Below are positions 22,368 to 45,592 of a stretch of DNA of 64,000 nucleotides, in pieces. The notes beneath the pieces were generated by a model. That model did no database searches, was not told the origin of the DNA, and saw nothing but the letters and a program-made list of their open reading frames with translations. The DNA is from Cryobacterium sp. PH31-L1 (lineage in GTDB: Bacteria > Actinomycetota > Actinomycetes > Actinomycetales > Microbacteriaceae): NCBI RefSeq assembly GCF_030063145.1, contig NZ_JASISM010000003.1, positions 62,001-126,000 of the forward strand. The letters are read 5' to 3'. The first letter of the stretch is position 1. Each line of letters begins with the position of its first letter. Position numbers and translations under genes: made by a program.

Positions 22368-22393
22368 GAAAACCTTTCGAGGGAGGGTCTGAG

Positions 22394-23731: not shown

Positions 23732-23740
23732 GCGCGTGCC

Positions 23741-26889: not shown

Positions 26890-28389
26890 CTACTGGTTCT
26901 GGGGGAAGCCCAGGTTGATTCCTCCGTGGCTCGGGTCGAGCCAACGGCTCGTGACCGCCTTCTCCCGGGTGTAGAAGTTCACTCCCGCGGGGCCGTAGGC
27001 CTTTGCGTCACCGAACAGCGAGTTCTTCCAGCCGCCGAACGAGTGGTACGCGACCGGCACCGGAATCGGCACGTTGATGCCGACCATGCCGACCTGCACC
27101 TCGTTCTGGAACCGGCGAGCGGCCCCGCCGTCGTTGGTGAAGATGGCGGTGCCGTTGCCGTACTGGCTCGCGTTGATGAGGTCGAGGCCCTCCTGGTAGC
27201 TGGCCACGCGCACGATCGACAGCACCGGTCCGAAGATCTCGTCGAGGTACACGGCGGAGTCGACGCTGACCTTGTCGAACAGGGTCGGGCCGAGCCAGAA
27301 GCCGTTGGGGTCACCATCAACCTTCACGCCGCGGCCATCGATGACGACGTCGGCGCCGTCGGCCTGGGCGATGTCGATGTAGCCGGCGACCTTGTCGCGG
27401 TGCACCTTGGTGATCAGCGGTCCCATGTCGCAGCCGCGCGTGCCGTCACCGACCGTGAGGCCCTTGACCCGCTCGGCGATCTTTGCGATGAGTTCGTCAG
27501 CCACGGGCTCCACGGCGACGATGACGCTGATGGCCATGCAGCGCTCACCGGCGGATCCGAACCCGGCGTTGACGGCGGCATCCGCTGTCAGGTCGAGGTC
27601 GGCGTCAGGCAGCACGAGCATGTGGTTTTTCGCGCCACCGAGGGACTGCACGCGCTTGCCGTGCTTGGCCGCGGTCTCGTAGATGTAGCGGGCGATCGGG
27701 GTGGAACCGACGAAGGAGATCGCCTGCACGTCGGGGTTCACGAGCAGCGCGTCGACGGCCTCCTTGTCGCCGTGCACGACGTTGAGCACACCGGCAGGCA
27801 GGCCGGCCTCGGTGAACAGCTCGGCGAGCCAGTTCGACGCCGAAGGGTCTTTCTCGCTCGGCTTGAGCACGACGGTATTGCCGGCCGCGATCGCGATGGG
27901 GAAATACCAGAGCGGCACCATCGCCGGAAAGTTGAACGGGCTGATGATGCCGACCACGCCGAGCGACTGGCGAATCGAGTACACGTCGACGCCGGTCGAG
28001 ACGTTCTCGGAGTACTCGCCCTTGGTCAGGTGCGGCATTCCGAGGGCGAATTCGACGACCTCGAGGCCGCGAATGATCTCGCCGAGCGCGTCGGAGGTCA
28101 CCTTGCCGTGTTCGGCGGTGAGGATATCGGCCAGGTCGCCCTTGCGCGCGTTCAGCAACTCGCGAAAGTTGTACATGATGGTCTGGCGGCGAGCCTGGCT
28201 CGTGTCGCGCCAGGCCGGGTAGGCGGCCTGGGCGACGGCGACGGCTGCGTCGAGGTCGGCGGCGCTCGCCAGCAGCACGTTTTTGGCGACTGTGCCGGTG
28301 GCGGGGTTGAAGACGGGCGCGGTGCGGGTCGAGGTACCGGCGGCAGCGGTGCCGTCGATGTAGTGCTGAATGGTGGGAACTTCGGTCAT
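26890..28389 (-). CDS. mmsA: CoA-acylating (methyl)malonate-semialdehyde dehydrogenase
   Basis: A 499-residue aldehyde dehydrogenase that makes acetyl-CoA from malonate semialdehyde, or propionyl-CoA from methylmalonate semialdehyde, with NAD and CoA. FNFPAMVPLWYFPIAIAAGN and the nucleophile in GSAGERCMAISV (Cys about residue 289) are MmsA-specific features; the C-terminus KEKAVTSRW-like segment is also present as TREKAVTSRW. It is the last gene of the pyrimidine operon and would use the product of the transaminase 29 bases upstream. Valine and inositol breakdown are alternative roles for the family. Confidence 0.93.
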   Translation of the reverse strand: MTEVPTIQHYIDGTAAAGTSTRTAPVFNPATGTVAKNVLLASAADLDAAVAVAQAAYPAWRDTSQARRQTIMYNFRELLNARKGDLADILTAEHGKVTSDALGEIIRGLEVVEFALGMPHLTKGEYSENVSTGVDVYSIRQSLGVVGIISPFNFPAMVPLWYFPIAIAAGNTVVLKPSEKDPSASNWLAELFTEAGLPAGVLNVVHGDKEAVDALLVNPDVQAISFVGSTPIARYIYETAAKHGKRVQSLGGAKNHMLVLPDADLDLTADAAVNAGFGSAGERCMAISVIVAVEPVADELIAKIAERVKGLTVGDGTRGCDMGPLITKVHRDKVAGYIDIAQADGADVVIDGRGVKVDGDPNGFWLGPTLFDKVSVDSAVYLDEIFGPVLSIVRVASYQEGLDLINASQYGNGTAIFTNDGGAARRFQNEVQVGMVGINVPIPVPVAYHSFGGWKNSLFGDAKAYGPAGVNFYTREKAVTSRWLDPSHGGINLGFPQNQ

Positions 28390-28418
28390 GGGTGATGCGT
28401 CCTTAATGGTTGGAGCGG

Positions 28419-29741
28419 TCAGGAAAGCAGGTCGAGGCTGAGCACCTCGTCGTAGGTGGCAAGCGCTTCGGCCACCTCAGCGTCGGTGACGACACACGGC
28501 GGCACGACGTGGATACGGTTTTCCATGAGGAACGGCAGCAGGCCGCGGCCGAGCAGTTCGGCCTTCACCCGGGCCATGACGGCGGCGCTCACCGGCTCAC
28601 GGGTCTCGGGGTCGGCGACCAGCTCGAGCGCCCAGAACACGCCGACACCGCGCACTTCGCCGATGATCGGGTGCTTGGCCTGCAGCTCGCGAAGGCCCGG
28701 CTCGAGCACATCACGGCCGATGCGGGCGGCGTTCTCGACGATGCCCTCGTCTGCCATCGCATCGAGGGTGCCGACGATCGACGCCATGGCGAGCGGATGC
28801 CCGCTGTACGTCAGCCCGCCGGGAAAGACCGTCTCGTCAAAGGTCGCAGCGATTGCATCGGAGATAATCACACCGCCGGTGGGCACGTAGCCGGAGTTGA
28901 CGCCCTTGGCGAAGGTGATCAGGTCGGGCACGACGTCATAGGCCTGGAAGGCGAACCAGTTGCCCGTGCGGCCGAAGCCGCACATGACCTCGTCGAGGAT
29001 GAGCATGATGCCGTACTTGTCGCAGAGCGCGCGCACCCCGGGCAGGTAGCCGGCCGGCGGCATCATGATTCCGGCGGTGCCGGGAATCGACTCGAGCAGA
29101 ATGGCGGCGACCGACGCCACCCCTTCACTCTGAATGACCCGTTCGAGGTGGTGCAGCGCGCGGGCGCATTCCTCAGCCTCGGTCGTCGCCCAGAATTCGC
29201 TGCGGTAGAGGAACGGGCCGAAGAAGTGCACGTGGCCGCGCGAATATTCGTTGGGGATGCGACGCCAGTCGCCGGTCGCCACGATCGCCGCGCCGGTGTT
29301 GCCATGATACGACTTGTAGAGCGAGAGCACCTTGTCGCGGCCGGTGTGCAGACGGGCCATGCGCATGGCGTTCTCATTCGCATCCGCTCCACCGTTGGTG
29401 AAGAACACCTTGTTGAATCCGGCCGGGGCCCGGTCGGTGATGCGCTTGGCCGCCTCGCCGCGGGCCAGGTTCGCCGTGGCCGGCGAGATGGTCGTCAGGA
29501 GCGCGGCCTGCTCGGTGATGGCTTTCACGACGGCCGGATGCTGGTGGCCAATATTCAGGTTCACCAACTGACTCGAAAAGTCGAGATAGGTGCGCCCGTC
29601 ATGATCCCAGACGCGGCAGCCCAACCCGCCGGCGATGACGAGCGGCTTCAATGCTGCCTGTGCCGACCAGGAATGGAATACGTGCGCCCGGTCGAGTTCG
29701 CTGGTGTGCGCGTTGAGAGTTTGTGTGCTGGTGTCAGTCAC
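28419..29741 (-). CDS. Class III PLP aminotransferase (beta-alanine type)
   Basis: A 440-residue omega-aminotransferase. PLP features are LILDEVMCGFGRTG (Asp binding the pyridine nitrogen) and the Schiff-base Lys in LITFAKGVNSGYVPTGG (about residue 283). In this operon it most likely moves the amino group from beta-alanine (or 3-aminoisobutyrate) to pyruvate or 2-oxoglutarate, giving malonate semialdehyde for MmsA. Start is GTG 29741. Taurine or 4-aminobutyrate are other substrates found in the family, so the specificity rests on context. Confidence 0.88.
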   Translation of the reverse strand: MTDTSTQTLNAHTSELDRAHVFHSWSAQAALKPLVIAGGLGCRVWDHDGRTYLDFSSQLVNLNIGHQHPAVVKAITEQAALLTTISPATANLARGEAAKRITDRAPAGFNKVFFTNGGADANENAMRMARLHTGRDKVLSLYKSYHGNTGAAIVATGDWRRIPNEYSRGHVHFFGPFLYRSEFWATTEAEECARALHHLERVIQSEGVASVAAILLESIPGTAGIMMPPAGYLPGVRALCDKYGIMLILDEVMCGFGRTGNWFAFQAYDVVPDLITFAKGVNSGYVPTGGVIISDAIAATFDETVFPGGLTYSGHPLAMASIVGTLDAMADEGIVENAARIGRDVLEPGLRELQAKHPIIGEVRGVGVFWALELVADPETREPVSAAVMARVKAELLGRGLLPFLMENRIHVVPPCVVTDAEVAEALATYDEVLSLDLLS

Positions 29742-29830
29742 GTATATCGCTGGCTTTCTGTTGGAAGTGGGTGAATAGGAAAAATTGTGCGCCGGGCGGC
29801 CCGTGCAGGGCCGCCCGGCCGGTTCAGCTG

Positions 29831-30967
29831 CTAGTTGCCGCCCTCGTTGAGGGTGACCTCGGTGGGCTTCCAGTCGGTGCCCATGACATCGACGCCGTCA
29901 GCCTTCAGCTCATCGAGCGCCTTGGTGACGTACTCGTTGGAGTAGGCGGTGGCGGGCGGAGCCGTGGTGATGATGGTCGCGCCGGTTTCGTTCTTGGTGT
30001 TCATAGCGATATCGACCGTGTTGGCCCAGGCCGCTTCATCGATCATTCCGACGCCGTTGGTCGACGGGAAGATGAGCTTGCTGACCTCGTTGGTCATCCA
30101 CAGTTGGTGGCTCTCCCCGAGGGTCGAACCGGCGGCCGTGACGATACCGGCCGCGATCGACGGGTTGTTGGCCGCGTAGATCCAGCCCTTGATCGACGCC
30201 TTGATGAATTTCACCGTGTTGTCGGCATAGTCGGCGTCACTGTCGAGTTTGTCGGCGTTGGCCCAGATGGAGTCCTGGAGCATCGCGGTGCCCTCGTCGT
30301 TCCAGTCGATGACGTTGAGTTCCTCGGGCTGGAACAGCTCGCCGGTGTCGGGGTTGATGGTTTCCAGAACCTGGGCGTACTCGTTGTAGGTCATGGCCTG
30401 GGCGGCAGCGATATCGCCGGCGAGGAATCCGGTCATGTCGAACGCCTGCTGAATGAGGTTGATGTCGCCGAGCTCAACGCCGGCTTTCTGCATGCCGGCG
30501 AACAGTTCCCACTCGTTGCCGTAGCCCCAGCTGCCGACGTTCTTGCCCGCAAGGTCCGCCGCGGTCGTGATGCCCTTGTCCTTGAGCGAGATCTGGGTGG
30601 TGGCGCTGCGCTCGAAGATCTGGGCGACGTCGGTGATGTTGGCGCCCTGCTCGATCGAGCCGAGCACCTTCGGCACCCAGGAGATGGCGTAGTCGGCGTC
30701 ACCGGCGGCGAGTACGTCCTGCGGCACGATGTCGGAGCCACCCTCGTCGATGGTCACGTCGAGGCCTTCGTCTTCGTAGTAGCCCTGGTCGAGCGCGGCG
30801 TAGTAACCGGCGAACTGGGCCTGCGCAAACCACTGCAGCTGCAGGGTGATCGGGGTGAGATCGCCGGCGGCATCCGTTGAGGGAGCAGTGCTCGCCGTGC
30901 TGCAGCCTGAGAGAACGAGAGCGCCGACGGCCGTGATTGCGCCAAGCCATGTGATGCGGTGTTTCAT
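29831..30967 (-). CDS. ABC importer substrate-binding lipoprotein, NMT1/THI5-like
   Basis: A 378-residue extracellular binding protein. A signal peptide ends in the lipobox LSGC (Cys about residue 22), so it is lipid-anchored. ITLQLQWFAQAQFAGYYAAL and YYEDEGLDVTIDEGGSD are hallmark segments of the NMT1/THI5-like family, which includes binders of pyrimidine-like precursors. Ribosome site AAGGAGG before ATG 30967. With two permeases and an ATPase upstream in the same operon it forms a complete importer; context suggests uracil, thymine or a hydrolysis intermediate as cargo. Confidence 0.88.
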   Translation of the reverse strand: MKHRITWLGAITAVGALVLSGCSTASTAPSTDAAGDLTPITLQLQWFAQAQFAGYYAALDQGYYEDEGLDVTIDEGGSDIVPQDVLAAGDADYAISWVPKVLGSIEQGANITDVAQIFERSATTQISLKDKGITTAADLAGKNVGSWGYGNEWELFAGMQKAGVELGDINLIQQAFDMTGFLAGDIAAAQAMTYNEYAQVLETINPDTGELFQPEELNVIDWNDEGTAMLQDSIWANADKLDSDADYADNTVKFIKASIKGWIYAANNPSIAAGIVTAAGSTLGESHQLWMTNEVSKLIFPSTNGVGMIDEAAWANTVDIAMNTKNETGATIITTAPPATAYSNEYVTKALDELKADGVDVMGTDWKPTEVTLNEGGN

Positions 30968-31012
30968 GGTGCCTCCTTGGTTACTGTTGCTGTGGGTGGT
31001 GGGGTGGATGGT

Positions 31013-31783
31013 CTAGCCGCCGGAACGGCGGGTGACGAGCTTCTCCACGATGAGAGCTGCACAGTAAAAAGCGAGTCCGAGAATGATCGAGCCGAGCACG
31101 TAGGCCCAGGCCAGCCCGTAGTTGCTGCTCGACGCGGCCGAGGTGATCGATTTGCCAAGGCCGCCGACCGGTCCGCCGAAGTACTCGGCGATCAGGGCGC
31201 TGATCACGGCGAGCGACGATGCGATGCGCAGGCCGGTGAAGACGAACGGCAGCGCGGTGGGCAGGGTGACCGCGCGGGTCGCCTGCCAGCTGGTGACGGC
31301 GTAGGCGCGCATCAGATCGCGGTCCACCGGGCGCACCTGGCGCAGGCCCTTGAGGGTGTTGAAGTAGACCGGCACGAACACGGCGAGCGCAGCGACCAGC
31401 TGCCGGGCGGTCTCGGCGCCCGCACCGAACATCGTATAGAGCACCGGCGCGAGCGCCACGATCGGAACCACCGAGAGGGCTGCGACGATCGGTGCGGCCA
31501 TCTCATCGAGCAGGCGGGCGAGTGCTGCCACGATCGCCAGCGCAATGCCGATCAGGGCGCCGATGACCAGGCCGATCAGGGAGTTACGGCCAGTGACCGC
31601 CATTCCGCCGGCGACGTTGTTCAGGTTGCCGGCGAATTCGGCGCCGATCGCAAACGGTGCCGGAAGAATGAACGCCTTGATCGCCAGCCCGGTGACCAAG
31701 CCCTGCCAGAGCAGGATGACGGCCACCCCGAACACGATTGGGGCGAGTACGGTCTGAACCAGTCCCGGCTGGGCCGTTCTCAT
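31013..31783 (-). CDS. ABC importer permease, SsuC/TauC type
   Basis: A 256-residue membrane protein with about six helices and a BPD_transp_1 domain (residues about 70-245). The cytoplasmic EAA-like loop is LPTALPFVFTGLRIASSLAV, which contacts the ATPase. Its ATG overlaps the stop of the ATPase gene as ATGA, so it is translated directly after it. It pairs with the second permease at 32625-33566. Confidence 0.9.
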   Translation of the reverse strand: MRTAQPGLVQTVLAPIVFGVAVILLWQGLVTGLAIKAFILPAPFAIGAEFAGNLNNVAGGMAVTGRNSLIGLVIGALIGIALAIVAALARLLDEMAAPIVAALSVVPIVALAPVLYTMFGAGAETARQLVAALAVFVPVYFNTLKGLRQVRPVDRDLMRAYAVTSWQATRAVTLPTALPFVFTGLRIASSLAVISALIAEYFGGPVGGLGKSITSAASSSNYGLAWAYVLGSIILGLAFYCAALIVEKLVTRRSGG

Positions 31784-32628
31784 CGCGTCTCGACCCCGCG
31801 AGCGCCGGCCGGGCTGGCACCGGCGGCTTCATCGCCGTGCAGCAGGTCGCGAACCTCGCTGAGGGAGCGAAAGAAGCCCTCGTCTTCGCGCAGGTCTTCG
31901 CCGCGGCCACTCGGAGCGCCAAGACCAACGCTCACAATCGAACGGATGCGTCCGGGCCGCGGCTCCAGCACCACCACCCGGTTGGAAAGAAACACCGCTT
32001 CGGGAATGGAGTGGGTGACGAAGACCACGGCGGCCTGGGTTTCGGCGCAGATGCGCACGAGTTCATTCTGCATGCGCTCGCGGGTCATCTCGTCGAGGGC
32101 GCCGAACGGTTCGTCCATAAGCAGCAGGCTGGGGCTTTCGGCGAGCGAGCGCGCTATTGCCACGCGCTGCTGCATACCGCCGGAGAGCTGGTCGGGAAAG
32201 TGCGCCGCGAAGTCGGAGAGCCCGACCAACGCGATCAGTTCAGCGGCACGGCGGCGCCTCGCCGCCTTGCCGACCCCGTGCAACTCGAGCGGCAGCTCGA
32301 TATTGCCGGCCACCGTGCGCCACGGCAGCAGGCCGGCCTGCTGGAAGGCGATGCCGTAGTCCTGGTCGATGCGGGCCTGCCTGGCCGGTTTGCCGAACAC
32401 CTCGATTCTGCCGCTCGTGGGAACGTCGAGGTCGGCGATGAGTCTCAGCAGCGTGCTCTTGCCGCATCCGCTTGGCCCGATCAGGCTGACGAATTCGCCG
32501 GGCGCGACCGTAAGGCTCACGTCGTCGAGGGCGGTGACACCTGGACCCTTGCGGGCGGCGAAGATGCGGCTGACGCCGTGCACGTTCACTGCGGGCACGT
32601 CGACGGCGAAGCTAGTGGTGGTAGTCAT
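31780..32628 (-). CDS. ABC importer ATP-binding protein, SsuB/TauB type
   Basis: A 282-residue ATPase. Walker A GPSGCGKSTLL, Q-loop near IAFQQAGLLPW, signature LSGGMQQRVAIARSL and Walker B LLLMDEPFGALD are all intact. The frame is open far upstream to 33279 only as an overlap with the permease gene in another phase; ATG 32628 (TTTTSFAVDVPAV) is the likely start and overlaps the permease stop by four bases. It powers the NMT1/THI5-type importer of this operon. Confidence 0.92.
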   Translation of the reverse strand: MTTTTSFAVDVPAVNVHGVSRIFAARKGPGVTALDDVSLTVAPGEFVSLIGPSGCGKSTLLRLIADLDVPTSGRIEVFGKPARQARIDQDYGIAFQQAGLLPWRTVAGNIELPLELHGVGKAARRRRAAELIALVGLSDFAAHFPDQLSGGMQQRVAIARSLAESPSLLLMDEPFGALDEMTRERMQNELVRICAETQAAVVFVTHSIPEAVFLSNRVVVLEPRPGRIRSIVSVGLGAPSGRGEDLREDEGFFRSLSEVRDLLHGDEAAGASPAGARGVETR

Positions 32629-33566
32629 GCTGAGGCCTCTCCCCTGCGAAAACGACGAAGGAACAGGCCGATCAGGCCCACAAAGCCGGCGGCGACGAGG
32701 CCGACCAAGATCGATCCGAAGATGGGCGCCCAGGGCTTGCCCGGGTCGTTGCCGGCCGCGCCGGCGTACTCCACGATGAGCCGGCCAATGCCGCCGCGCA
32801 GCCCGATCGACACCTCGGCGACGACGCTGCCGACGACAGCGCTGACCGCGGCCAGGCGCAGAGCCGGCAACAGATAGCCGACGCTGGCCGGCAGGCGCAG
32901 CCGCCAGAGCGTCTTCCACCAGCCGACCGCGTAGCAGTGCATGAGGTCGACGTGGTTGGCGTCGGGCGAGGCGAGGCCGCGCAGGGCGCCGATCGACACC
33001 GGAAAGAACGCGAGGTAGCTGGCGATCAGGGCCACCGACATCCAGCTTTCCCAGGTGAAATCGCCGAACTGGATCTGCGCGCCCCAGCGCCGCACCAGTG
33101 GAGCGATCGCGATGAGCGGCACGGTCTGGCTCAGAATGATCCACGGAAGAATGGCCGACTCGGCCAGGCGAAAACGCTGCATCAGCAGCGCGAGCGCGAG
33201 CCCCACAGTCACCCCGACCAGCCAGCCGACCGCGGCAATGCCCAGGGTGAACAGCGAGCCCTGCGACACCGCCTGCCACAACGGCAAAGCGGATGCCGCA
33301 CCCGTCACCGGCTCGAACAGCCGATCAAACATGACCCAGAGGTGCGGCATGGCGAGGTCGGTCGTGCGCGGCAGCACGGTGAGCGTGCCGATGACGACAC
33401 CATCGACCGGGCCGAGCGCCTTGTAGAGCTCCCAGATGAGGGCGAGCAGTACGAGGCCGGCCAGGCCGAACAGGCCACCGCGCAGGCGCGGGTGCACGTG
33501 CGCGTCGCGACGCACTGGGACTGCTCTCCGCCGGGACGGGGCGGTCTGCTCGGTCTGGGTGGGCAT
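32625..33566 (-). CDS. ABC importer permease, SsuC/TauC type (second)
   Basis: A 313-residue permease with a basic cytosolic N-terminus (QTEQTAPSRRRAVPVRRDAH), about six to seven helices and an EAA-like loop LPASVGYLLPALRLAAVSAV. Two different permeases imply a heterodimeric channel. Four bases separate its start from the stop of the LLM oxidoreductase gene, and its end overlaps the ATPase gene by ATGA, so the transporter and the catabolic genes form one translational chain. Confidence 0.88.
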   Translation of the reverse strand: MPTQTEQTAPSRRRAVPVRRDAHVHPRLRGGLFGLAGLVLLALIWELYKALGPVDGVVIGTLTVLPRTTDLAMPHLWVMFDRLFEPVTGAASALPLWQAVSQGSLFTLGIAAVGWLVGVTVGLALALLMQRFRLAESAILPWIILSQTVPLIAIAPLVRRWGAQIQFGDFTWESWMSVALIASYLAFFPVSIGALRGLASPDANHVDLMHCYAVGWWKTLWRLRLPASVGYLLPALRLAAVSAVVGSVVAEVSIGLRGGIGRLIVEYAGAAGNDPGKPWAPIFGSILVGLVAAGFVGLIGLFLRRFRRGEASA

Positions 33567-33570
33567 CCGC

Positions 33571-34587
33571 TTATTTCTTGGCCGTGATGGAATCGGTCAG
33601 TGCCGGAATGACGGTGTCGCCGTAGACACGCATGGTTTCTTCCTTGTTGTCGTGCTGCAGGTAGCCGGCGAACTGGTCGACGCCGAGGTCTTTGAGTGCC
33701 TCGAGCTTCTCGATGTGGTCCTTGGCCGTTCCCAGAAGGCAGAACCGGTCGACGATATCGTCGGGCACGAAGGCGGCGTGCTCGTTTCCGGCTTTGCCGT
33801 GCTGGTTGTAGTCGTAGCCCTCGCGGTCCTTGATGTAATCGGTGAGTGCCTTCGGCACGGCCGAATCGGCGCCGTACTTGGCGACGATGTCGGCAACGTG
33901 GTTGCCGACCATTCCACCGAACCAGCGGCACTGGTCGCGCATGTGCTCCCAGTCCGAACCGACATAGGCGGGGGCGGCGACGCAGAACTTGATTGCCAGC
34001 GGGTCACGGCCGGCGTTGGAGGCTGCGGTGCGCACGCTTTCGATCATCCATTTGGCCACGTCGAGGTCGGCCATCTGCAGGATGAAGCCGTCGCCCACCT
34101 CACCGGCGAGCTTGAGCGCGAGCGGGCCGTACGCGGCGACCCAGACGTCCAGCGTGGAGCCGCGGCTCCACGGAAACTGCACCGTGGCACCGTTGTACTC
34201 CACGGGGCGGGAGTTGGCGAGCTCGCGAATGACGTGGATCGACTCGCGCAGGGTCTTCAGGGTGGTCGGTGCACCGTTGGTGGTGCGCACCGCCGAATCG
34301 CCACGGCCGATGCCGCAGATGGTGCGGTTGCCGTACATCTCGTTGAGGGTCGCGTAGGTCGACGCCGTGACGGTCCAGTCTCGGGTAGCCGGGTTGGTGA
34401 CCATGGGGCCGACGATGATCTTGCTGGTTTCGGCCAGGATGCGGCTGTAGATCACATACGGTTCCTGCCAGAGCAGGTGCGAGTCGAAGGTCCAGACGTG
34501 GCTGAACCCGTGGGCCTCGGCCAGTTTGGCCAGTTGCACGGTGCGCGCCGACGGCGGGTTGGTTTGAAGTACTGCTCCGAAATCCAT
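33571..34587 (-). CDS. LLM-class F420-dependent oxidoreductase (TIGR03842-like)
   Basis: A 338-residue luciferase-like TIM-barrel flavin/F420 enzyme. The N-terminus MDFGAVLQTNPPSARTVQLA and the segments FSHVWTFDSHLLWQEPY, TICGIGRGDSAVRT and VAAYGPLALKLAGEVGDGF match, by my recollection, the TIGR03842 family, related to methylene-H4MPT reductase and without a proven function. It lies ten bases after the dihydropyrimidinase gene and four before the permease. I infer that it reduces uracil and thymine to the dihydro forms with F420H2, since no other dihydropyrimidine dehydrogenase is present. A RutA-like monooxygenase role is the main alternative. Confidence 0.85.
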   Translation of the reverse strand: MDFGAVLQTNPPSARTVQLAKLAEAHGFSHVWTFDSHLLWQEPYVIYSRILAETSKIIVGPMVTNPATRDWTVTASTYATLNEMYGNRTICGIGRGDSAVRTTNGAPTTLKTLRESIHVIRELANSRPVEYNGATVQFPWSRGSTLDVWVAAYGPLALKLAGEVGDGFILQMADLDVAKWMIESVRTAASNAGRDPLAIKFCVAAPAYVGSDWEHMRDQCRWFGGMVGNHVADIVAKYGADSAVPKALTDYIKDREGYDYNQHGKAGNEHAAFVPDDIVDRFCLLGTAKDHIEKLEALKDLGVDQFAGYLQHDNKEETMRVYGDTVIPALTDSITAKK

Positions 34588-34597
34588 CTTTTCCGCC

Positions 34598-36031
34598 CTA
34601 AATCAGGTACTGGCTCAGGCCGCGCTTGATGTAGCGACCGTCACCCTTGGTGCCGAGGTAGGCATTGTCGTCAACGACGACCTTGCCGCGGGAGATGACG
34701 GTGTCGACGTGGCCGTCGATCTCGTAGCCTTCCCAGGCGGAATAGTCCATGTTCATGTGGTGAGTCTTATCAACACCGATGGAGGTGTGCCCATTCGGGT
34801 CGTAGACCACGACGTCGCCGTCGGCGCCGGGGGCGATCACGCCCTTCTGGCCAAACATGCCGAACATGCGTGCCGGGGTCGTGGAGCACACTTCGACCCA
34901 GCGTTCGAGCGAGATCTTGCCGTCGACCACACCCTGGTAGAGCAGGTCCATGCGGTGTTCGACCGAGCCGATTCCGTTGGGGATCTTGGAAAAGTCGGTC
35001 AGGCCCATGTCCTTCTGGCCTTTCATGCAGAACGGGCAGTGGTCGGTGGACACCATCTGGATATCGTTCGTGGCGAGGCTCTGCCACATGTGGTGCTGGT
35101 GGCCTTCAGCCTTGGCCCGCAGCGGCGTGGAGCACACCCACTTGGCTCCTTCGAAGCTGCCCCACTCGTCGCTCTCGGCACCGAGGTTGTCTTCGAGTGA
35201 GAGGTAGAGGTACTGCGGGCAGGTCTCGCCGAACACGTTCTGGCCGTTGTCTCGGGCCGTCGCGATCTGGTCAACGGCCTGCTTCGCCGACACATGAACT
35301 ATATATAGGGGTGCGCCGGTGAGGTTGGCAAGCATTATGGCCCGGTGCGTGGCTTCTTCTTCGGCCTGCCAGGGCCGGGTGAGGCCGTGGTAGAGCGGGC
35401 TGGTGTTGCCGGCGGCGACGGCCTGCTGCACGAGCAGGTCGATGACGCTGCCGTTTTCGGCGTGCATCATGATCATGCTGCCGTTGGTGGCGGCGCGCTG
35501 CATGGCCTTGACGATCTGGCCGTCGTCGCTGAGAAAGACCCCCTTGTAGGCCATGAACAGTTTGAAGCTCGAGACGCCCTCGCCGACGAGTTCGTCCATC
35601 GCGGTCAGAGAGCTGTCCTGCACGTCACTGAGAATCTGGTGGAAGCCATAGTCGATGGCGCACTGGCCGGCGGCCTTCTGCTGCCAGGCGGCGTAGCGTT
35701 CCAGCACGTCTTCGCCGGCGTACTGCACGACGAAGTCGACGATGCTCGTGGTGCCGCCCCAGGCGGCCGCGCGGGTGCCGGTTTCGAAGGTGTCGCTGGC
35801 TTGGGTGCCGCCGAACGGCATCTCCATGTGGGTGTGGGCGTCGATACCGCCTGGGATAACGTACTTGCCGCCGGCATCGATGACGCGGTCGACGTTGCCC
35901 GCCACATCGAAGCCGAGCAGGGTGGAGCCGGGTGCGAGCACCGCGACAATTTTCTCGCCATCGATGAGCACGTCGGCGAGTCCTCGACCCGTGGCATTGA
36001 CCACGGTGCCGTTCTTGATCAAAGTCTTCAT
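34598..36031 (-). CDS. hydA: Dihydropyrimidinase / D-hydantoinase
   Basis: A 477-residue cytosolic amidohydrolase that opens 5,6-dihydrouracil to N-carbamoyl-beta-alanine. The binuclear zinc site is visible as GGIDAHTHMEMPFGG (His-x-His), the carbamylated Lys in GVSSFKLFMAYKG (about residue 150), HAENGS and VHVSAKQAVDQI, and the late STDHCPFCMKGQ segment with the metal Asp/His. Length and features are normal. It is the second gene of the operon. Hydantoin hydrolysis is possible but the neighbours favour pyrimidines. Confidence 0.93.
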   Translation of the reverse strand: MKTLIKNGTVVNATGRGLADVLIDGEKIVAVLAPGSTLLGFDVAGNVDRVIDAGGKYVIPGGIDAHTHMEMPFGGTQASDTFETGTRAAAWGGTTSIVDFVVQYAGEDVLERYAAWQQKAAGQCAIDYGFHQILSDVQDSSLTAMDELVGEGVSSFKLFMAYKGVFLSDDGQIVKAMQRAATNGSMIMMHAENGSVIDLLVQQAVAAGNTSPLYHGLTRPWQAEEEATHRAIMLANLTGAPLYIVHVSAKQAVDQIATARDNGQNVFGETCPQYLYLSLEDNLGAESDEWGSFEGAKWVCSTPLRAKAEGHQHHMWQSLATNDIQMVSTDHCPFCMKGQKDMGLTDFSKIPNGIGSVEHRMDLLYQGVVDGKISLERWVEVCSTTPARMFGMFGQKGVIAPGADGDVVVYDPNGHTSIGVDKTHHMNMDYSAWEGYEIDGHVDTVISRGKVVVDDNAYLGTKGDGRYIKRGLSQYLI

Positions 36032-36061
36032 GGCATCCTCTTCGCTGAAAGTGTCAGGGGT

Positions 36062-36109
36062 AGCGGATGCCGCCGGTCGAGCCTCAAAGGTCGGCCGGAA
36101 GCATCCGCT
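36062..36109. terminator. Intercistronic stem-loop
   Basis: AGCGGATGC (36062-36070) and GCATCCGCT (36101-36109) are exact reverse complements, and CCGG words just inside extend the pairing. It lies in the 120-base gap between the amidase and dihydropyrimidinase genes, so it could weaken read-through or stabilise one of the messages. Confidence 0.5.
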
Positions 36110-36151
36110 TGTGCCTAGCTGCTAGGGCTCTAGCCGCTCGGGGCCCAATTA

Positions 36152-37006
36152 TTAGGGCGCGACGAGGGGCTCATAGGAGTCGGGGCGACGGTCACGGTAG
36201 AACTGCCAGGAGTTGCGCACCTCGCGGATGACGCCAAGGTCGAGGTCTCGCACGAGAATCTCCTCGGTGTCGGTCGAGGCGCCCTCGCCCACGTAGTTGC
36301 CCTTGGGATCAACGAAGTACGAGCTGCCGTAGAAGGTCACGGCCTCGTCGCCGAACTCGGCCGCTTCATTGCCGATGCGGTTGTTCGCGCCGACGTAGTA
36401 CTGGTTGGCGACGGCGGCGGCGGGCTGCTCGAGCTCCCACAGGCGGTTCGAGAGACCGGGCTTGGTGGCCGAGGGGTTGAACACGATCTCGGCGCCGTTC
36501 AGGCCAAGTGCACGCCAGCCCTCCGGGAAGTGGCGGTCGTAGCAAATGTAGACGCCGATCTTGCCGTACGCCGTGTCGAACACCGGGTAGTCGGTGTTGC
36601 CGGGGCGAAAGTAGAACTTCTCCCAGAACTGCGGCAGGTGCGGGATGTGGTGCTTACGGTACTTGCCGAGGTAGGTTCCGTCGGCGTCGATGACCGCGGC
36701 GGTGTTGTAGAGCACGCCGGGCTGTTCTTCCTCATAGACCGGAAGCACGATGACCATCTTGAACTCGGCGGCGAGTTTAGCGAACCGATCCACGAGCGGG
36801 CCGGGAACGGCCTGCGCATAGTCGTAATACTTGGCGTCCTGCACGATGCCGAAATAGGGGCCGTGAAAGAGTTCCTGAAAGCAGATCACCTGCACGCCCT
36901 GGGCGGCGGCGGTGCGCACGAAGCCTTCGTGCTTGGCGATCATGGATTCTTCGTCGCCGGTCCAGGTGGCCTGGGTGATGGCGGTTCGAACGATCTGGCT
37001 ATTCAT
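36152..37006 (-). CDS. Nitrilase-superfamily amidohydrolase, beta-ureidopropionase-like
   Basis: A 284-residue nitrilase-fold enzyme with the Glu-Lys-Cys triad: VICFQELFHGPYFG (Glu), LGKYRKHHIPHLP (Lys) and VYICYDRHFPEGWR (Cys about residue 153). In its context it should hydrolyse N-carbamoyl-beta-alanine to beta-alanine, CO2 and ammonia, the step after dihydropyrimidinase. FRPGNTDYPVFDTAYGKIGV resembles beta-ureidopropionases. It is the first gene of the operon and is divergent from the MocR regulator. N-carbamoylputrescine hydrolysis is the closest alternative. Confidence 0.87.
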   Translation of the reverse strand: MNSQIVRTAITQATWTGDEESMIAKHEGFVRTAAAQGVQVICFQELFHGPYFGIVQDAKYYDYAQAVPGPLVDRFAKLAAEFKMVIVLPVYEEEQPGVLYNTAAVIDADGTYLGKYRKHHIPHLPQFWEKFYFRPGNTDYPVFDTAYGKIGVYICYDRHFPEGWRALGLNGAEIVFNPSATKPGLSNRLWELEQPAAAVANQYYVGANNRIGNEAAEFGDEAVTFYGSSYFVDPKGNYVGEGASTDTEEILVRDLDLGVIREVRNSWQFYRDRRPDSYEPLVAP

Positions 37007-37159: not shown

Positions 37160-38542
37160 ATGCAGAACTTTATCGATGAAATCGAGCAGCGCACCCCGGC
37201 GGGGATTGCCGCGGCCATCGGCCGGCTGATCGCGAGCGGTCGCCTCGCGCCTGGAGACCGCCTGCCGACCGTGCGAGTACTGGCCGGCGAGCTCGGCGTG
37301 AGCCCGGCCACGGTCAGCCACGCCTGGCAGGCGCTCTCCTCGGTCGGCCTGATCGTGTCGCGTGGTCGGGGCGGCACCTTCGTTCAGGATGCCGCGCCCC
37401 AGTGGCTGCCGGCCCGCAGCCAGTCCATGATCGGCGCGGTCGGTCCGGCCCGCCTCGATCTCTCGCGCGGCACTCCCGACCCGCTGCTGCTCCCGGCACT
37501 CGGACCGGCGCTGTCCCGCGTGTCGCAGCGCGCGGTGACGCCGAGCTACCAGGATCTGCCGATCATTCCGGAGCTGCTCGAGGTACTGCGGGCCTCGTGG
37601 CCCTACCCGGTGGAAACCATCACCGTCGTCGACGGCGCCCTCGACGCCATCTCGCGCAGCCTCGACGCAGTGGCCCGGTTCGGCGACCGGGTCATCATGG
37701 AGAACCCCACGTTTCCGCCGTTCTTCGACCTACTCGACCAGCTCGGCCTCGAGCGCCTCCCGGTAGCGGTCGACGAGCACGGCATTGTTCCGGCCGACTT
37801 CGCCGCGGCGCTGAAGCTCGGCCCGGCCGTGGTGCTGCTGCAGCCGCGGGCGCAGAACCCCACCGGCGCCTCGATGACGGCGCATCGGGCCGAGGAGCTG
37901 GCCCGGCTGCTGCGCGCTACGCCGGCGAGCGCGGACACCATCGTGATCGAAGACGATCACTCCGCCGAGATCAGCATCGCCTCCGACGTGAGTCTCGGCC
38001 TCTGGCTGCCGGAACGCACCCTGCACGTGCGCAGCTTCTCCAAATCGCACGGCCCCGACCTGCGCATTGCCGCGCTCGGCGGTCCGGCCGCGCTGATCGA
38101 CCCGATCGTATCGCGGCGCATGCTCGGCCCCGGCTGGACCAGCCGCATGCTGCAGACCATTTTGCACGACCTGCTCACCAACGGCGAGAGCATGGCCCAG
38201 GTCAGCGAGGCCCGCCGCATCTACTTCGCCCGCCAGCGTGCCCTTGCCGATGCCCTGGCCGAGTTCGGGCTTGAGGTGGTGCAGGCCGACGGCATCAACA
38301 CCTGGTTGCCCGTGCAGAACGAGCGGGATGCCATGGTGCGGCTCGCCGCCTCCGGCATTCGCGTGGCTGGCGGTTCGCCGTTTCTGGCCGCCCCGGATCT
38401 GTCAGGCGCCGGCGGCCCCGCATTCATTCGCGTGACCGCCGGCGCCCTGCCCGACGACATCCGACCGGTGGCCGAGGCGCTGGCCGCGGCGGCGCGTCCG
38501 CTTGATTCGGCCGTGCACCCCATCGGTGCGCGCTGGTCGTAA
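37160..38542 (+). CDS. MocR-family regulator (GntR winged helix fused to aminotransferase-like domain)
   Basis: A 460-residue protein. Residues about 10-75 form a GntR winged helix (GDRLPTVRVLAGELGVSPAT), and the rest is a fold type I aminotransferase-like domain with the PLP Lys region VRSFSKSHGPDLRIAALGGP and the LQPRAQNPTGASM segment. MocR proteins sense PLP or amino compounds. Being divergent from the pyrimidine operon, it is probably its regulator, possibly responding to beta-alanine, which is inference. Its 3' end is convergent with fgd at 22 bases. Confidence 0.9.
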   Translation: MQNFIDEIEQRTPAGIAAAIGRLIASGRLAPGDRLPTVRVLAGELGVSPATVSHAWQALSSVGLIVSRGRGGTFVQDAAPQWLPARSQSMIGAVGPARLDLSRGTPDPLLLPALGPALSRVSQRAVTPSYQDLPIIPELLEVLRASWPYPVETITVVDGALDAISRSLDAVARFGDRVIMENPTFPPFFDLLDQLGLERLPVAVDEHGIVPADFAAALKLGPAVVLLQPRAQNPTGASMTAHRAEELARLLRATPASADTIVIEDDHSAEISIASDVSLGLWLPERTLHVRSFSKSHGPDLRIAALGGPAALIDPIVSRRMLGPGWTSRMLQTILHDLLTNGESMAQVSEARRIYFARQRALADALAEFGLEVVQADGINTWLPVQNERDAMVRLAASGIRVAGGSPFLAAPDLSGAGGPAFIRVTAGALPDDIRPVAEALAAAARPLDSAVHPIGARWS

Positions 38543-38563: not shown

Positions 38564-39568
38564 TCAGCCCAGCTCGCGCAGCCTGGGGGCCAGGTCGCGC
38601 TCGAACAGGCCGAGAAAACGCTTCTGGTCGTGGCCCGGGGCGTGGAAGACCAGATGGTTGAGGCCGGCATCGAGGTACGGCTTGATCAGTGCCACCGCCT
38701 CGTCGGGGTCGGAGGCGACGATCCAGCGCTTGGCCACCTGCTCGATCGGGAGCGCATCGGCGGCCGCCTCCATCTCGAGCGGGTCGTGAATGGACTGCTT
38801 CTGCTCGGGCGTGAGCGACAGCGGGGCCCAGAACCGGGTGTTCTCGAGCGCGGCCTGCGGGTCGGTGTCGTAGGAGATCTTGATCTCGATCATGCGGTCG
38901 ATGTCGTCCTGGGCGCGACCGACCTTGTCCAGCCCCTCGGCGACGGCGGGAAGGAGTTTCTCGGTGTAAAGCTCCATGCCCTTGCCCGAGGTGCAGATGA
39001 AACCGTCGCCGGCACGGCCGGCATAGCGGGCCACGACCGGGCCGCCGGCCGCGATGTACACCGGCACCGGGGCATCCGGAACGTCGTAGAGGGTGGCTCC
39101 GACGGTTTTGTAATACTCTCCGTCGAAATCGATGCGCTCACCGGTCCAGAGCTGACGCATGAGGTCGACGGCCTCGCGGAGGCGCGCGAAACGTTCCTTG
39201 AACTCGGGCCAGTCGCCCTGGTAGCCCGTGGCGATCTCATTGAGGGCCTCGCCCGTTCCCACACCGAGCATGATGCGCCCGGGGTAGAGGCAGCCCATGG
39301 TTCCGAAGGCCTGGGCCAGTACGGCCGGGTTGTAGCGGAACGTGGGTGTCATCACCGACGTGCCGATCTGCACCCGCTTGGTGCGTTCGCCGACCGCGGC
39401 CATCCAGGCCATCGCGTAGGGCGCGTGGCCGCCTTCGTGCCGCCACGGCTGAAAGTGGTCACTCACGGTGACGCTGTCGAGCCCGTGCTCTTCGGCCATG
39501 ACGCCGAGTTCCACTAGTTCTCGCGGTGCGAACTGCTCCGCCGACGCTTTCAATCCCAGCTTCAACAT
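38564..39568 (-). CDS. fgd: F420-dependent glucose-6-phosphate dehydrogenase
   Basis: A 334-residue LLM TIM-barrel enzyme that oxidises glucose 6-phosphate to 6-phosphogluconolactone while reducing F420 to F420H2. It is very similar to mycobacterial Fgd1 as I recall it: [18 protein letters not shown] at the N-terminus, [15 protein letters not shown] (catalytic His38 and Trp42 here), [15 protein letters not shown] (Glu), [18 protein letters not shown] segment near 280 and a [12 protein letters not shown] end. ATG 39568 has a GGGAG ribosome site; the frame is open 17 codons upstream. It is divergent from the F420-0 transporter, and supplies F420H2 for LLM enzymes. Confidence 0.95.
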
Positions 39569-39649
39569 GCGCTCTCCCTCGTGTCGTACCCAATATTCGC
39601 ACTGACTCAATGTTTGCACTGGCCGGTCCCTGCTACGGTATTCGTGACC

Positions 39650-39669: not shown

Positions 39670-39741
39670 TGAGCTTGCCTCGATTTGGGCAGCAGGTCTC
39701 TGGACAATCCAGTTCCCGCGCCCAAAATAATGAGGTTCCGC

Positions 39742-40734
39742 ATGCGCCATTCCCGTTTTCTGTTCATCGGCGTGGCCACCAGCGCCGCCCTGCTGCTCAG
39801 CGGGTGCGCCGCCGCAACACCGGCCGCCACCCCGGCCGAGTCCCCCGCCGCCAGCGCGAGCTACCCGGTCACCGTGAAGAATTGCGGCACGAACCTCACC
39901 GTCACGAAGGCGCCCGAGCGGATCGTGTCGATCAAGTCCTCGGCGACCGAGTTGCTGTTGGCCCTAGGTCTCGGCGACCGCATCGTCGGCTCAGCCTTTC
40001 TCGACGGCCCGTTACCCTCATCGCTGGCGACCGAAGGGTCCGACCTCAACGTGATCAGCGACTTCCTGCCCGGCCAGGAGGCGGTACTCGGCCTGAACCC
40101 CGACTTCATCTACGGCGGCTGGGAATCAAACTTCAGCGCCGACGGTGTGGGCGAACGCGATGCCCTGACGGCGCTCGGCGTCGGCACATACGTCTCACCG
40201 GCAGCGTGCAAGGGCGACTTCATGCCCAATCCGCTCACCTTCGACTCGGTGTTCACCGAGATCGAAGAAGCCGGCGCCATCTTTGGCGTCGAGTCCGCCG
40301 CCGCCGACCTGGTCAACACCCTGAACGACGACCTCGCCGGTCTGACGCCGTCGATCGCCGGAACCACCACGGCCCTCTGGTACTCGAGCGGCACCACGAC
40401 CCCCTACGTGGGCGCCGGCATCGGCTCACCCGAAATGATCATGGACGCCGCTGGGCTCACTAATATCTTCGCCGATGTGAGCGACACCTGGACCTCGGTG
40501 GGTTGGGAATCGATCATCGAGGCCAACCCGAGCGTCATCGTGCTGGTCGACGCCACCTGGAACACCGCCGCGTCGAAGATCGCCCACCTCGAATCGGACC
40601 CGGCCACCCAGGTGCTCGACGCAGTGAAGAACCAGCGCTACATCATTTTGCCATTCGCCTCCACCGAGGCCGGCATCCGCAATGTAGAAGCAGCATCGTC
40701 GACGATCACCCAGTTAGCCGACCTGAACGAGTGA
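39742..40734 (+). CDS. Putative F420-0 ABC transporter substrate-binding lipoprotein
   Basis: A binding protein of about 330 residues with a signal peptide ending in the lipobox LLSGC. The fold is of the helical-backbone class III type used for siderophores and cobalamin: PERIVSIKSSATELLLALGL and the later GWESIIEANPSVIVLVD are diagnostic. Position at the head of permease, ATPase and cofD genes fits the putative F420-0 transporter family (TIGR03868 type, from memory). Upstream ATGs at 39685 and 39730 are possible, but GAGG before ATG 39742 decides the start. F420-0 as cargo is a context-based prediction. Confidence 0.82.
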   Translation: MRHSRFLFIGVATSAALLLSGCAAATPAATPAESPAASASYPVTVKNCGTNLTVTKAPERIVSIKSSATELLLALGLGDRIVGSAFLDGPLPSSLATEGSDLNVISDFLPGQEAVLGLNPDFIYGGWESNFSADGVGERDALTALGVGTYVSPAACKGDFMPNPLTFDSVFTEIEEAGAIFGVESAAADLVNTLNDDLAGLTPSIAGTTTALWYSSGTTTPYVGAGIGSPEMIMDAAGLTNIFADVSDTWTSVGWESIIEANPSVIVLVDATWNTAASKIAHLESDPATQVLDAVKNQRYIILPFASTEAGIRNVEAASSTITQLADLNE

Positions 40735-40749
40735 GCTCCTTCCCCCCCA

Positions 40750-40810: not shown

Positions 40811-40828
40811 AACCTGGCGGAGACTCGC

Positions 40829-41845
40829 GTGACCCGGAGTACGTACCTCGGGTGGCTCGTTGCAGCCACCATCGCGCTCATTCTCGTGTGCGCGGTCGCC
40901 GTGACCATCGGGCCGGCAGCCGTCAGCCTCGCGCAGGTGGCGGGCAGCATCGGCGCGCACCTCGGGCTTCCGACCGCGCCGGTGCCTCTGCTCACCGACT
41001 CCATCGTCTGGCAGCTGCGGCTGCCGCGCGTGCTCACGGCCGCGCTGGTCGGGGCCGGCCTCGCCCTGAGCGGCGCGGTGATGCAGAGCGTGACGCGCAA
41101 CCCGCTCGCGGACCCGTACCTGCTGGGTTTGTCGAGCGGGGCATCCGTCGGTGCGGTCTGCGTGGTCATTCTCGGCATCGGCTTTGCCCTGCCGGCCGCC
41201 GCCTTCCTCGGCGCGCTGCTCGCTCTTGTCGCCACGCTCAGCATCGCCCGGGTCGGTGGCACGATCACGCCGGTGCGGGCGGTCCTCGCCGGGCTGGCCA
41301 TCGCCCAGCTCGCCGGCGCGCTGACCTCGTTCATCATCTTCTGGGCGGCCAAGGGCGACTCCTACCGCGAGATTCTCAACTGGCTGCTCGGCTCGGTGGC
41401 CGGCGCCACATGGGAGAGCGTCGCGATTGCCGGAACGGCCGTGTTGGTCGTGGGCACCGGCATCCTCTTCTCGGCGACTCGGCTCGACGCGTTCGCGTTC
41501 GGTGACACCTCGGCGGCGAGCCTCGGCATCAACGTGAACCGCACCCGCTGGGCACTGCTCGGATCGGTGGCCCTGCTGACCGGTGCCATGGTGGCCGTCA
41601 GCGGCTCGATCGGGTTCGTCGGACTCATCCTGCCGCACCTCGTGCGCGGCGTCAGCGGGCCGGGACACCGCCGACTGCTGCCGCTCGTTGCCGTCTGCGG
41701 CGGGCTGTTCCTGGTCATTGCCGACACGCTCGCCCGCACTGTGTTCGACCCGCGCGAGCTTCCGGTGGGCATCATCACGGCGTTCATCGGGGTGCCCGTG
41801 TTCATTCTGCTGATCAAGAGAAAGAAGTCGCACCTGTGGGCGTAG
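40829..41845 (+). CDS. Putative F420-0 ABC transporter permease
   Basis: A 338-residue FecCD/BtuC-type permease with about nine to ten helices. QLRLPRVLTAALVGAGLALS and VTRNPLADPYLLGLSSGASV are the family signatures near residues 65-105, and GFVGLILPHLVRGVSGPGHR is the coupling-helix region. GTG 40829 has a GGCGGAG ribosome site. Its end overlaps the ATPase gene by ten bases. Type is that of siderophore and cobalamin importers; assignment to F420-0 rests on the adjacent cofD (TIGR03869 type). Confidence 0.85.
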   Translation: MTRSTYLGWLVAATIALILVCAVAVTIGPAAVSLAQVAGSIGAHLGLPTAPVPLLTDSIVWQLRLPRVLTAALVGAGLALSGAVMQSVTRNPLADPYLLGLSSGASVGAVCVVILGIGFALPAAAFLGALLALVATLSIARVGGTITPVRAVLAGLAIAQLAGALTSFIIFWAAKGDSYREILNWLLGSVAGATWESVAIAGTAVLVVGTGILFSATRLDAFAFGDTSAASLGINVNRTRWALLGSVALLTGAMVAVSGSIGFVGLILPHLVRGVSGPGHRRLLPLVAVCGGLFLVIADTLARTVFDPRELPVGIITAFIGVPVFILLIKRKKSHLWA

Positions 41846-42615
41846 ACCTCGACCAGCTGTCGTTCTCGATCGACGGCACCAGTATTCTGCGCGACGTCTC
41901 AGCGTCGCTGCCCACCGGCAGCGTCACCGGCCTGCTCGGCCCGAACGGCGCTGGCAAGTCCACCCTGCTGCGGCTCATTGCCGGCATCGACAAAGCGGAT
42001 GCCGGCACCGCCGCCCTCGACGGCGTCTCGGTGGGGTCACTGAACCGACGCGACGCGGCCCGCCGCATCGCCCTGCTGGAGCAGAATGCGGCTCCGAGCG
42101 TGGAGCTGACCGTGCTCGAGGTTGTGCTGCTCGGGCGCATTCCGCATCGCACCAAACTCATGGGCTCCTTCAGCGGCGACGAGGATCGCGGCGTCGCTCT
42201 CGATGCCCTCGAGGCGGTGGGTGCCCGATCGCTCGCCGACCGGTCCTGGCACAGCCTGAGCGGCGGGCAACAGCAGCGGGTGCAGATCGCGCGGGCCATG
42301 GCGCAGCAACCGAGCCTGCTGCTGCTCGATGAACCGACCAACCATCTCGACGTGAGCGCCCAGCTTTCCCTGCTCGGCCAGGTGCGGGAGCTCGGGGTGA
42401 CGGCCATCATGGCCCTGCATGATCTCAATCTCGCGGCGGCGTACTGCGACCACATTCTGTTGCTCGACGGCGGCCTGCTGGTGGCCTCGGGCCCACCAGC
42501 CGAGGTGCTCACTCCGGAGATCATCGGCGCAGTCTACGGGGTGGACTGCTTCATTCTGGAGCATCCGCGCGGCGGGCATCCGGTCATCGTGTACTCGGCT
42601 GCGATGTCGGCGTGA
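41836..42615 (+). CDS. Putative F420-0 ABC transporter ATPase
   Basis: A 259-residue FepC/BtuD-like ATPase. Walker A GPNGAGKSTLL, signature LSGGQQQRVQIARAM and Walker B LLLLDEPTNHLD are intact. The GTG start lies within the permease end, and its stop TGA overlaps the GTG of cofD (GTGA), so transporter and F420 synthesis are translationally coupled. That coupling is the best evidence for a role in F420 precursor transport rather than iron or cobalamin. Confidence 0.87.
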   Translation: MGVDLDQLSFSIDGTSILRDVSASLPTGSVTGLLGPNGAGKSTLLRLIAGIDKADAGTAALDGVSVGSLNRRDAARRIALLEQNAAPSVELTVLEVVLLGRIPHRTKLMGSFSGDEDRGVALDALEAVGARSLADRSWHSLSGGQQQRVQIARAMAQQPSLLLLDEPTNHLDVSAQLSLLGQVRELGVTAIMALHDLNLAAAYCDHILLLDGGLLVASGPPAEVLTPEIIGAVYGVDCFILEHPRGGHPVIVYSAAMSA

Positions 42616-44290: not shown

Positions 44291-44409
44291 CTGCGACAAG
44301 GTACCAGCGTGCGTGCAATGTGCCGCAACCCGGCGCGCGGTAGCCTCAAGGGTCGACTGCACGCATCCATCGACTCGATTACGTTCGTTTGAACGGCCCA
44401 GGAGGTTCC

Positions 44410-44760
44410 ATGTCACTCACCACCCAGTCCCGTACGCTGCCGATGGCCATCATGACCTACCTCGAACGCAGCGCCAGCGCGAAGCCCGCCTCCGCGCGAG
44501 CAACCTTCACCGAAAACGCGGTCGTCATTGATGACGGCAAGACCTACACGGGCGAGACGGCCATCACCGCCTGGCTCGCCGGCAGCGCCGCCGAATTCGA
44601 GTACACGACCACCCAGCTGCGCACCGAGAAGGACGAGTCGTCGACGACCGTCGTCAACCGCGTCGAGGGCAACTTTCCGGGCCGCAGCGTCGACCTGAAC
44701 TACCGCTTCGAGCTCGACGCCGAGAGCGGCCTGATTCAGGCCCTCACCATCTCGATCTAG
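44410..44760 (+). CDS. SnoaL/NTF2-like protein
   Basis: A 116-residue protein of the nuclear-transport-factor-2-like fold: helix [34 protein letters not shown] and [20 protein letters not shown], then strands to [15 protein letters not shown]. Start ATG 44410 follows GGAGG. The stop shares a CTAG with the cofE stop on the other strand. It is divergent from cofC. A link with F420 is suggested by position only; no catalytic residues are evident. Confidence 0.72.
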
Positions 44761-45545: not shown

Positions 45546-45592
45546 GGCCCCCACTTCGGCGGCGGCAGCGTCGGGCAGCGAATCGTGCGGCA

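Follow-up and report, generated by a model that had tools for sequence, protein, structure and literature searches.

The 64-kb window studied here, that is, the whole stretch of Cryobacterium sp. PH31-L1 DNA that was analysed (contig C27:62001-126000), carries a nine-gene operon on its minus strand (26890-37006). Its genes encode, in operon order, a CN hydrolase, the dihydropyrimidinase HydA, an LLM oxidoreductase of the TIGR03842 family, a permease, an ATPase and a second permease of an ATP-binding cassette (ABC) transporter, an NMT1/THI5-type binding protein, a class III transaminase and MmsA. An earlier note on this DNA had read these genes as reductive pyrimidine catabolism with an F420 enzyme at the first step. 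We found all nine open reading frames (ORFs) at the expected place and strand, and the gene content and close spacing given there are correct, with the LLM gene 10 bases from hydA and 4 bases from the adjoining permease gene. Genome comparison and the predicted fold also support its central proposal: the TIGR03842 protein is very probably an F420H2-dependent uracil/thymine reductase that replaces the first enzyme of reductive pyrimidine degradation. This reading draws on the missing first step, the lack of PreA over cut-off in TIGR03842 genomes sampled from the Actinomycetota and the Halomonas order, an exchange with preT-preA, F420-reducing partners, and a fold typical of F420 enzymes.

The operon is predicted to encode the later steps of the pathway, and we compared each protein with family models and their curated score thresholds (hereafter cut-offs). 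The best solved relative of HydA is the dihydropyrimidinase 3sfw (482 bits). The amidase of the earlier note is indeed a CN hydrolase, but it scores 257 bits with the AguB model, under the cut-off of 410, so that its role as beta-ureidopropionase is a prediction; its nearest solved structures are the N-carbamoylputrescine amidase 5h8i, then 2vhh (CG3027-PA) and the beta-ureidopropionase 8pt4. For the transaminase the best solved relative is the taurine:2-oxoglutarate aminotransferase 6jix. Solved relatives of the importer's binding protein are 4nmy (74 bits) and, more distantly, the formylaminomethylpyrimidine-binding protein 3ix1 (45.6 bits). The permease encoded next to the LLM gene has homologues in the same position at other loci.

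What the host appears to lack is a conventional first enzyme. Across the whole genome (3.66 Mb, estimated completeness 99.99%) we detected no match to PreA (NF006183) at E<=1e-40, and the best match to RutA (TIGR03612, cut-off 498.3) reached 67.8 bits, among weak paralogue matches only. The statement that neither PydA/PreA nor a Rut set is present, first made for the operon, extends to the genome for PreA and RutA at these thresholds; a dihydropyrimidine dehydrogenase elsewhere, which the note had named as a finding that would refute it, was thus not detected. RutA resembles the TIGR03842 protein in having the LLM fold and uracil as its substrate, but it uses FMN (flavin mononucleotide) and O2 to open the ring oxidatively.

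The LLM protein covers positions 1-329 of the 329 in the TIGR03842 (F420_CPS_4043) model, a family that NCBI lists as a hypothetical equivalog. Most of its closest named database relatives belong to Microbacteriaceae, among them Cryobacterium, Leifsonia and Salinibacterium. An AlphaFold model (predicted local distance difference test score, pLDDT, 86) has a (beta/alpha)8 fold closest to F420-binding LLM (LLHT) members, with Mer, Adf and Fgd as the nearest folds. The gene context suggests that the protein binds F420 and not FMN. Membership in the family of Mer, the F420-dependent methylene-tetrahydromethanopterin reductase (TIGR03555), was rejected, as the score of 131.5 bits is far under the cut-off of 348.7 and the catalytic Glu6 is missing. 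In Mer, a Gln variant at this position retains 0.4% of kcat, according to the available text of PMC11094777. Among 126 aligned TIGR03842-type proteins (fifteen LLM ORFs outside 300-480 aa having been dropped beforehand), the position is occupied by Thr in 63, Cys in 35 and Val in 28. Asn229, His230, Gln171 and Tyr153 (numbered as in the protein of the window) are invariant or almost so, and are candidates for the proton donor. On a FastTree tree of the same 126 proteins we counted four changes of ureidopropionase type, three of F420-reducing enzyme and eleven of the cof cassette, a rough sign that the partners of the LLM gene have been swapped repeatedly. Two LLM matches on haloarchaeal plasmids (31% and 29%) were left out, as their neighbours are acyl-CoA and oxoprolinase genes and include no pyrimidine genes.

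Table 1. Operon, F420-related genes and candidate importers in the window, with the family-model evidence for each
Feature	Position	Strand	Evidence
CN-hydrolase amidase, predicted beta-ureidopropionase (third step)	36152..37006	-	PF00795 229 bits
HydA dihydropyrimidinase (second step)	34598..36031	-	TIGR02033 548.4 bits, cut-off 393.25
TIGR03842 LLM oxidoreductase, predicted F420H2-dependent uracil/thymine reductase (first step)	33571..34587	-	TIGR03842 592.6 bits, cut-off 295.45
ABC permease, predicted pyrimidine importer	32625..33566	-	weak SaoP permease match, 25.4 bits
ABC ATPase, predicted pyrimidine importer	31780..32631 (ATG at 32631)	-	taurine/nitrate-type ATPase matches, all under cut-off
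Second ABC permease, predicted pyrimidine importer	31013..31783	-	SaoP/SsuC/NtrB-type matches, all under cut-off
NMT1/THI5-type binding protein of importer	29831..30967	-	PF09084 125 bits
Class III transaminase, predicted beta-alanine / beta-aminoisobutyrate transaminase	28419..29741	-	NF004718 745 bits, cut-off 472
MmsA, CoA-acylating (methyl)malonate-semialdehyde dehydrogenase	26890..28389	-	TIGR01722 682.4 bits, cut-off 448.5
MocR-type regulator (GntR + aminotransferase fold), divergent from operon	37160..38542	+	PF00392, PF00155
Fgd	38564..39619	-	TIGR03554 676.4 bits, cut-off 420
BtuF/FecB-type binding protein, candidate deazaflavin (FO/F420) importer	39685..40734	+	PF01497; 58% to Devosia L164 homologue beside TIGR03842
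FecCD-type permease, same candidate importer	40829..41845	+	PF01032 300 bits; 56% to L164
ABC ATPase, same candidate importer	41836..42615	+	PF00005; 51% to L164; overlaps cofD by 4 bases
CofD, 2-phospho-L-lactate transferase	42612..43601	+	TIGR01819 343.3 bits, cut-off 257.45
CofC, 2-phospho-L-lactate guanylyltransferase	43598..44416	-	TIGR03552 118.3 bits, cut-off 105
CofE, F420-0:glutamate ligase	44757..46106	-	TIGR01916 235 bits, cut-off 180.65

The survey of co-occurrence proposed in the earlier note covered a sample of 396 Actinomycetota genomes (TIGR03842 at E<=1e-60, HydA at E<=1e-110, PreA over cut-off). TIGR03842 occurs in 85 of them (84 over cut-off), HydA in 128 and PreA in 3. HydA is present in 84 of the 85 TIGR03842 genomes as compared to 128 of 396 overall (Fisher p 9e-52, with shared ancestry ignored); in 69 of the 85 it lies within 10 kb of the TIGR03842 gene, on the same strand in 65 of these 69. 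PreA does not reach its cut-off in any of the 85; a weak match in one of them, G208, stays under it. As a paralogue control, we examined 58 TIGR03842 genomes and found, among the 150 LLM matches listed, HydA within 10 kb of 10 of 11 TIGR03842 genes and of 2 of 139 other LLM genes; the fgd of the host itself is among these two. TIGR03842 and HydA are paired more than chance would have it.

The flanks of 57 of these 85 genomes, picked by hand, were read at one locus each; those omitted are mainly large genomes of similar appearance and short contigs, and many contigs stop within the flank. These loci hold HydA in 45 cases, a carbamoyl hydrolase in 54, a transaminase in 35, MmsA in 20, an NMT1 binding protein in 20 and PreA in none. 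Neighbours were named by their best BLAST match to genes of the window, of loci L040 and L039, and to E. coli preT/preA, so that the counts of transaminases, like those of ABC ATPases, are loose. The carbamoyl hydrolase is of the CN type only in 35 loci and of the M20 type only in 19; two unrelated enzymes (PF00795 and PF01546) alternate next to one LLM family. In a genome without TIGR03842 (G196, locus L112), PreA-PreT adjoins HydA and an M20 hydrolase. A homologue of the MocR regulator was present in 9 of 64 loci tallied.

Beyond the Actinomycetota, a scan of named genomes gave 588 relatives, of which we kept the 80 most similar to the Leisingera protein, a ranking that makes the set lean to Proteobacteria; the loci belong to Proteobacteria, to Chloroflexota and to a small number of other groups, and many are close kin. 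On plasmids of Leisingera and Paracoccus alcaliphilus, the TIGR03842 gene closes a cofG-cofH-cofD-cofC-cofE-npdG cassette. In Leisingera, the genes for HydA, an M20 hydrolase, an aminotransferase and the transhydrogenase PntAB are divergent from this cassette; in P. alcaliphilus an NMT1-type transporter comes after it. Four or more cof genes are found in 37 of the 80 loci, and HydA or a carbamoyl hydrolase in 48. An F420-reducing enzyme is encoded in 56: npdG directly precedes the LLM gene in 47, and in nine without npdG (seven Devosia, a Hyphomicrobiales metagenome-assembled genome and a Mesorhizobium) the enzyme is a homologue of Fgd (59-64%), that of L161 scoring over the Fgd cut-off. PntAB is also present in 8 of the 80. 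As NpdG and Fgd both make F420H2, the LLM protein should consume it. In Paracoccus denitrificans DSM 413, a strain with reported traces of F420, the cassette adjoins hydA and an M20 hydrolase gene, and no PreA match was detected at E<=1e-40. A locus titled Nocardioides marinus DP1N28-1 (L115), counted among the 80, has a Leisingera-like cof cassette with an LLM protein 98% identical, and its record is probably mislabelled or contaminated.

The clearest sign of function comes from loci in which npdG-LLM occupies the place that preT-preA has elsewhere. Seven loci (L133, L136-L140, L142), so alike that they probably represent one lineage, have the order npdG-LLM-M20 hydrolase-hydA-ABC transporter-transaminase, and chromosomal contigs of Leisingera and Limimaricola (L220, L223-L225) have the order preT-preA-M20 hydrolase-hydA-ABC transporter. 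This exchange suggests that the LLM protein and an F420 reductase do the job of PreA and PreT. A replacement of this kind seems to have arisen in more than one bacterial phylum, several in all. In the Halomonas order (145 genomes), TIGR03842 occurs in 8 genomes and PreA in 11, none of them among the 8, and CofD is found in 46 (45 over cut-off), including all 8.

Several observations weigh against the proposed role. Of 40 named TIGR03842 genomes hand-picked from the 80, six also have PreA over cut-off (three Leisingera, Aquamicrobium defluvii, Devosia psychrophila and Limimaricola hongkongensis), and in Leisingera it sits in a complete canonical preT-preA-hydA operon. Strict mutual exclusion, which over cut-off holds in the Actinomycetota sample (0/85) and the Halomonas order (0/8), thus fails among the named genomes, and TIGR03842 can be said only to usually replace PreA. 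Within the available flank, 24 of the 80 named loci, Devosia included, contain not one of the pathway genes sought. Of the 46 CofD-bearing genomes in the Halomonas order, 38 have no TIGR03842, indicating that F420 has other uses there. Finally, CofH was not found (E<=1e-60) in 7 of 50 TIGR03842 genomes of the Actinomycetota, the host included, nor CofD (E<=1e-15) in 6 of the 40 named ones, each a Devosia or a Pelagibacterium; F420 may therefore not be fully made in such genomes. CofH was likewise not found at this threshold in 12 of 30 Actinomycetota genomes without TIGR03842, and with CofH in 43 of 50 TIGR03842 genomes and 18 of 30 others, strict dependence on complete F420 synthesis was rejected.

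We propose the following sequence of steps. The NMT1-type ABC transporter would import uracil, thymine or a related pyrimidine, and the TIGR03842 protein, with F420H2 bound, would deliver a hydride to ring C6 and a proton to C5, yielding dihydrouracil or dihydrothymine. HydA would then open the dihydropyrimidine ring, the CN hydrolase would release ammonia, CO2 and beta-alanine (or beta-aminoisobutyrate), and the transaminase and MmsA would convert the latter to acetyl-CoA or propionyl-CoA. F420H2 would be regenerated by Fgd in the host, and by NpdG, at some loci together with PntAB, in many Proteobacteria.

The substrate of this F420H2-dependent step might instead be another pyrimidine-like ring, thiamine-derived or 5-substituted. 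An importer of the NMT1/THI5 type, one solved relative of which binds formylaminomethylpyrimidine, would suit such a compound, and a second substrate would explain why Leisingera has both a canonical preT-preA-hydA operon and a TIGR03842 cassette. We consider this unlikely, given that the canonical preT-preA operons (L220, L223-L225) share the importer type, the M20 hydrolase and HydA, and that MmsA and the transaminase suit beta-alanine or beta-aminoisobutyrate. It is highly improbable that the LLM protein depends on FMN, as a RutA-like monooxygenase or an FMN reductase to which the neighbouring F420 genes are unrelated: its best structural matches are F420 enzymes, its RutA scores are far under cut-off, npdG adjoins the LLM gene so often among the named loci, and a monooxygenase would deprive HydA of its dihydropyrimidine substrate. 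Equally slight is the chance that the protein runs in reverse and reduces F420 with an alcohol or semialdehyde of the pathway, as its relatives Fgd and Adf do, since most of the named loci already hold an F420-reducing enzyme, some of them PntAB as well, and the pathway is short of a reduction step, not an oxidation step.

Uracil/thymine reduction by F420H2 would make this a new variant of a known pathway. HydA, the predicted ureidopropionase and transaminase, and MmsA are common to it and the PydA / PreT-PreA pathway; from the second enzyme on, the alphaproteobacterial loci compared also share their operon order. The first enzyme differs: an Fe-S flavoprotein there, and here an LLM protein with one domain, from a different family, whose predicted donor is distinct from those of the PydA forms described, which depend on NAD(P)H or ferredoxin (PMC7332683, available text). 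Two systems are similar by description. In Chloroflexota uric-acid clusters, a luciferase-family F420 enzyme was predicted, from its neighbourhood only, to be a yanthine reductase (PMC12507026, in part); it too would replace an Fe-S flavoenzyme in the reductive dearomatisation of a uracil-type ring, but in a purine pathway. The putative F420/FMN oxidoreductase SSGG-03002 / NpsU reduces the uracil C5-C6 bond of mureidomycin, as gene disruption and nuclear magnetic resonance showed, and no activity was obtained in vitro (PMC10714638, in part); unlike the TIGR03842 protein, it tailors uridyl-peptide antibiotics. In Haloferax volcanii grown on alanine, a luciferase-family gene was among the most induced, with amaB2, dpyS, mmsA and gabT6 (PMC6801745, in part).

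We found no F420-dependent uracil reductase in catabolism in the open-licence literature searched. The main text of PMC8498797, in which F420 roles outside actinobacteria are said, in the part available, still to await experiment, contains no word starting with uracil, and a word search of the available text of PMC6279831 returned no mention of uracil, pyrimidine, dihydropyrimidin-, Colwellia or proteobacteria. If correct, our assignment would give a function to TIGR03842, make F420H2 one more electron donor for a central catabolic pathway and provide a physiological role for F420 in Proteobacteria.

The F420 genes said to lie next door are present in part: fgd, cofD, cofC and cofE are there, but the FO synthase CofH/FbiC (TIGR03551) has no match at E<=1e-60 in the host genome, weaker matches not having been searched for. 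A relative, G206, likewise has no TIGR03551 match at this threshold, and another from the same family, G265, has a divergent but clear FbiC (4e-74). As the CofE domain begins near residue 192 of its ORF, translation probably starts near 45530. Directly upstream of cofE is another Fgd-family LLM gene (45593-46669, minus strand; TIGR03557 277 bits, over cut-off; TIGR03885 314 bits, under). The TIGR03842 loci L055, L063, L068, L083 and L099 also have an LLM gene of the Fgd family (29-36% to the Fgd of the window), which lies upstream of hydA where hydA is present; the L068 homologue, which is over the TIGR03557 cut-off, may be a source of F420H2. A solved structure exists for the Fgd of Thermomicrobium.

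As an FO synthase seems to be missing, the F420 supply of the host may rest on uptake. Between fgd and cofD lies a set of BtuF-type binding protein, FecCD-type permease and ATPase genes (39685-42615, plus strand) that, judged by gene neighbourhood, is a plausible candidate for an importer of FO or F420. Such uptake is plausible because FO crosses membranes and leaks from cells (PMC8498797, available text). Homologues occur in L161-L166, L170, L174, L191, L061 and L215; in Devosia they adjoin fgd, cofE and TIGR03842, which comes before fgd in L162 and L165 and after the importer in L164. The importer is in the TIGR03842 locus of all six named genomes in which CofD was not found, and its binding protein is in none of the 34 such loci of CofD-bearing named genomes, a count confined to these loci; two of the 34 loci show a 37-40% FecCD match. 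In G206 the importer is near cofD. The host pathway is possibly partial and fed by imported FO. The open-licence literature searched yielded no published F420/FO importer.

We also raise, as a tentative idea, that uracil breakdown is among the chief causes of the spread of F420 into many Proteobacteria, through a mobile cofGHDCE-npdG-TIGR03842 cassette that unites the cofactor, its reductase and one client enzyme. Some users (Devosia, the host) would have given up part of the cofactor synthesis and would import FO/F420 in a vitamin-like manner through a dedicated BtuCDF-type transporter. A related LLM gene (33% identity) lies on plasmid 3 of Variovorax sp. PBL-E5 (L219, 5414-15973) with genes for an amidohydrolase, a CN hydrolase and RidA, npdG and cofGHDCE; this is perhaps a sister F420 cassette for another ring compound. 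In the window itself, positions 21180-25608 encode an ArgE-type deacetylase, a MatC/CitMHS-type carrier, an Amdase/EutA-like protein and a divergent IclR regulator, which looks like a separate catabolic function of the (aryl)malonate or maleate type.

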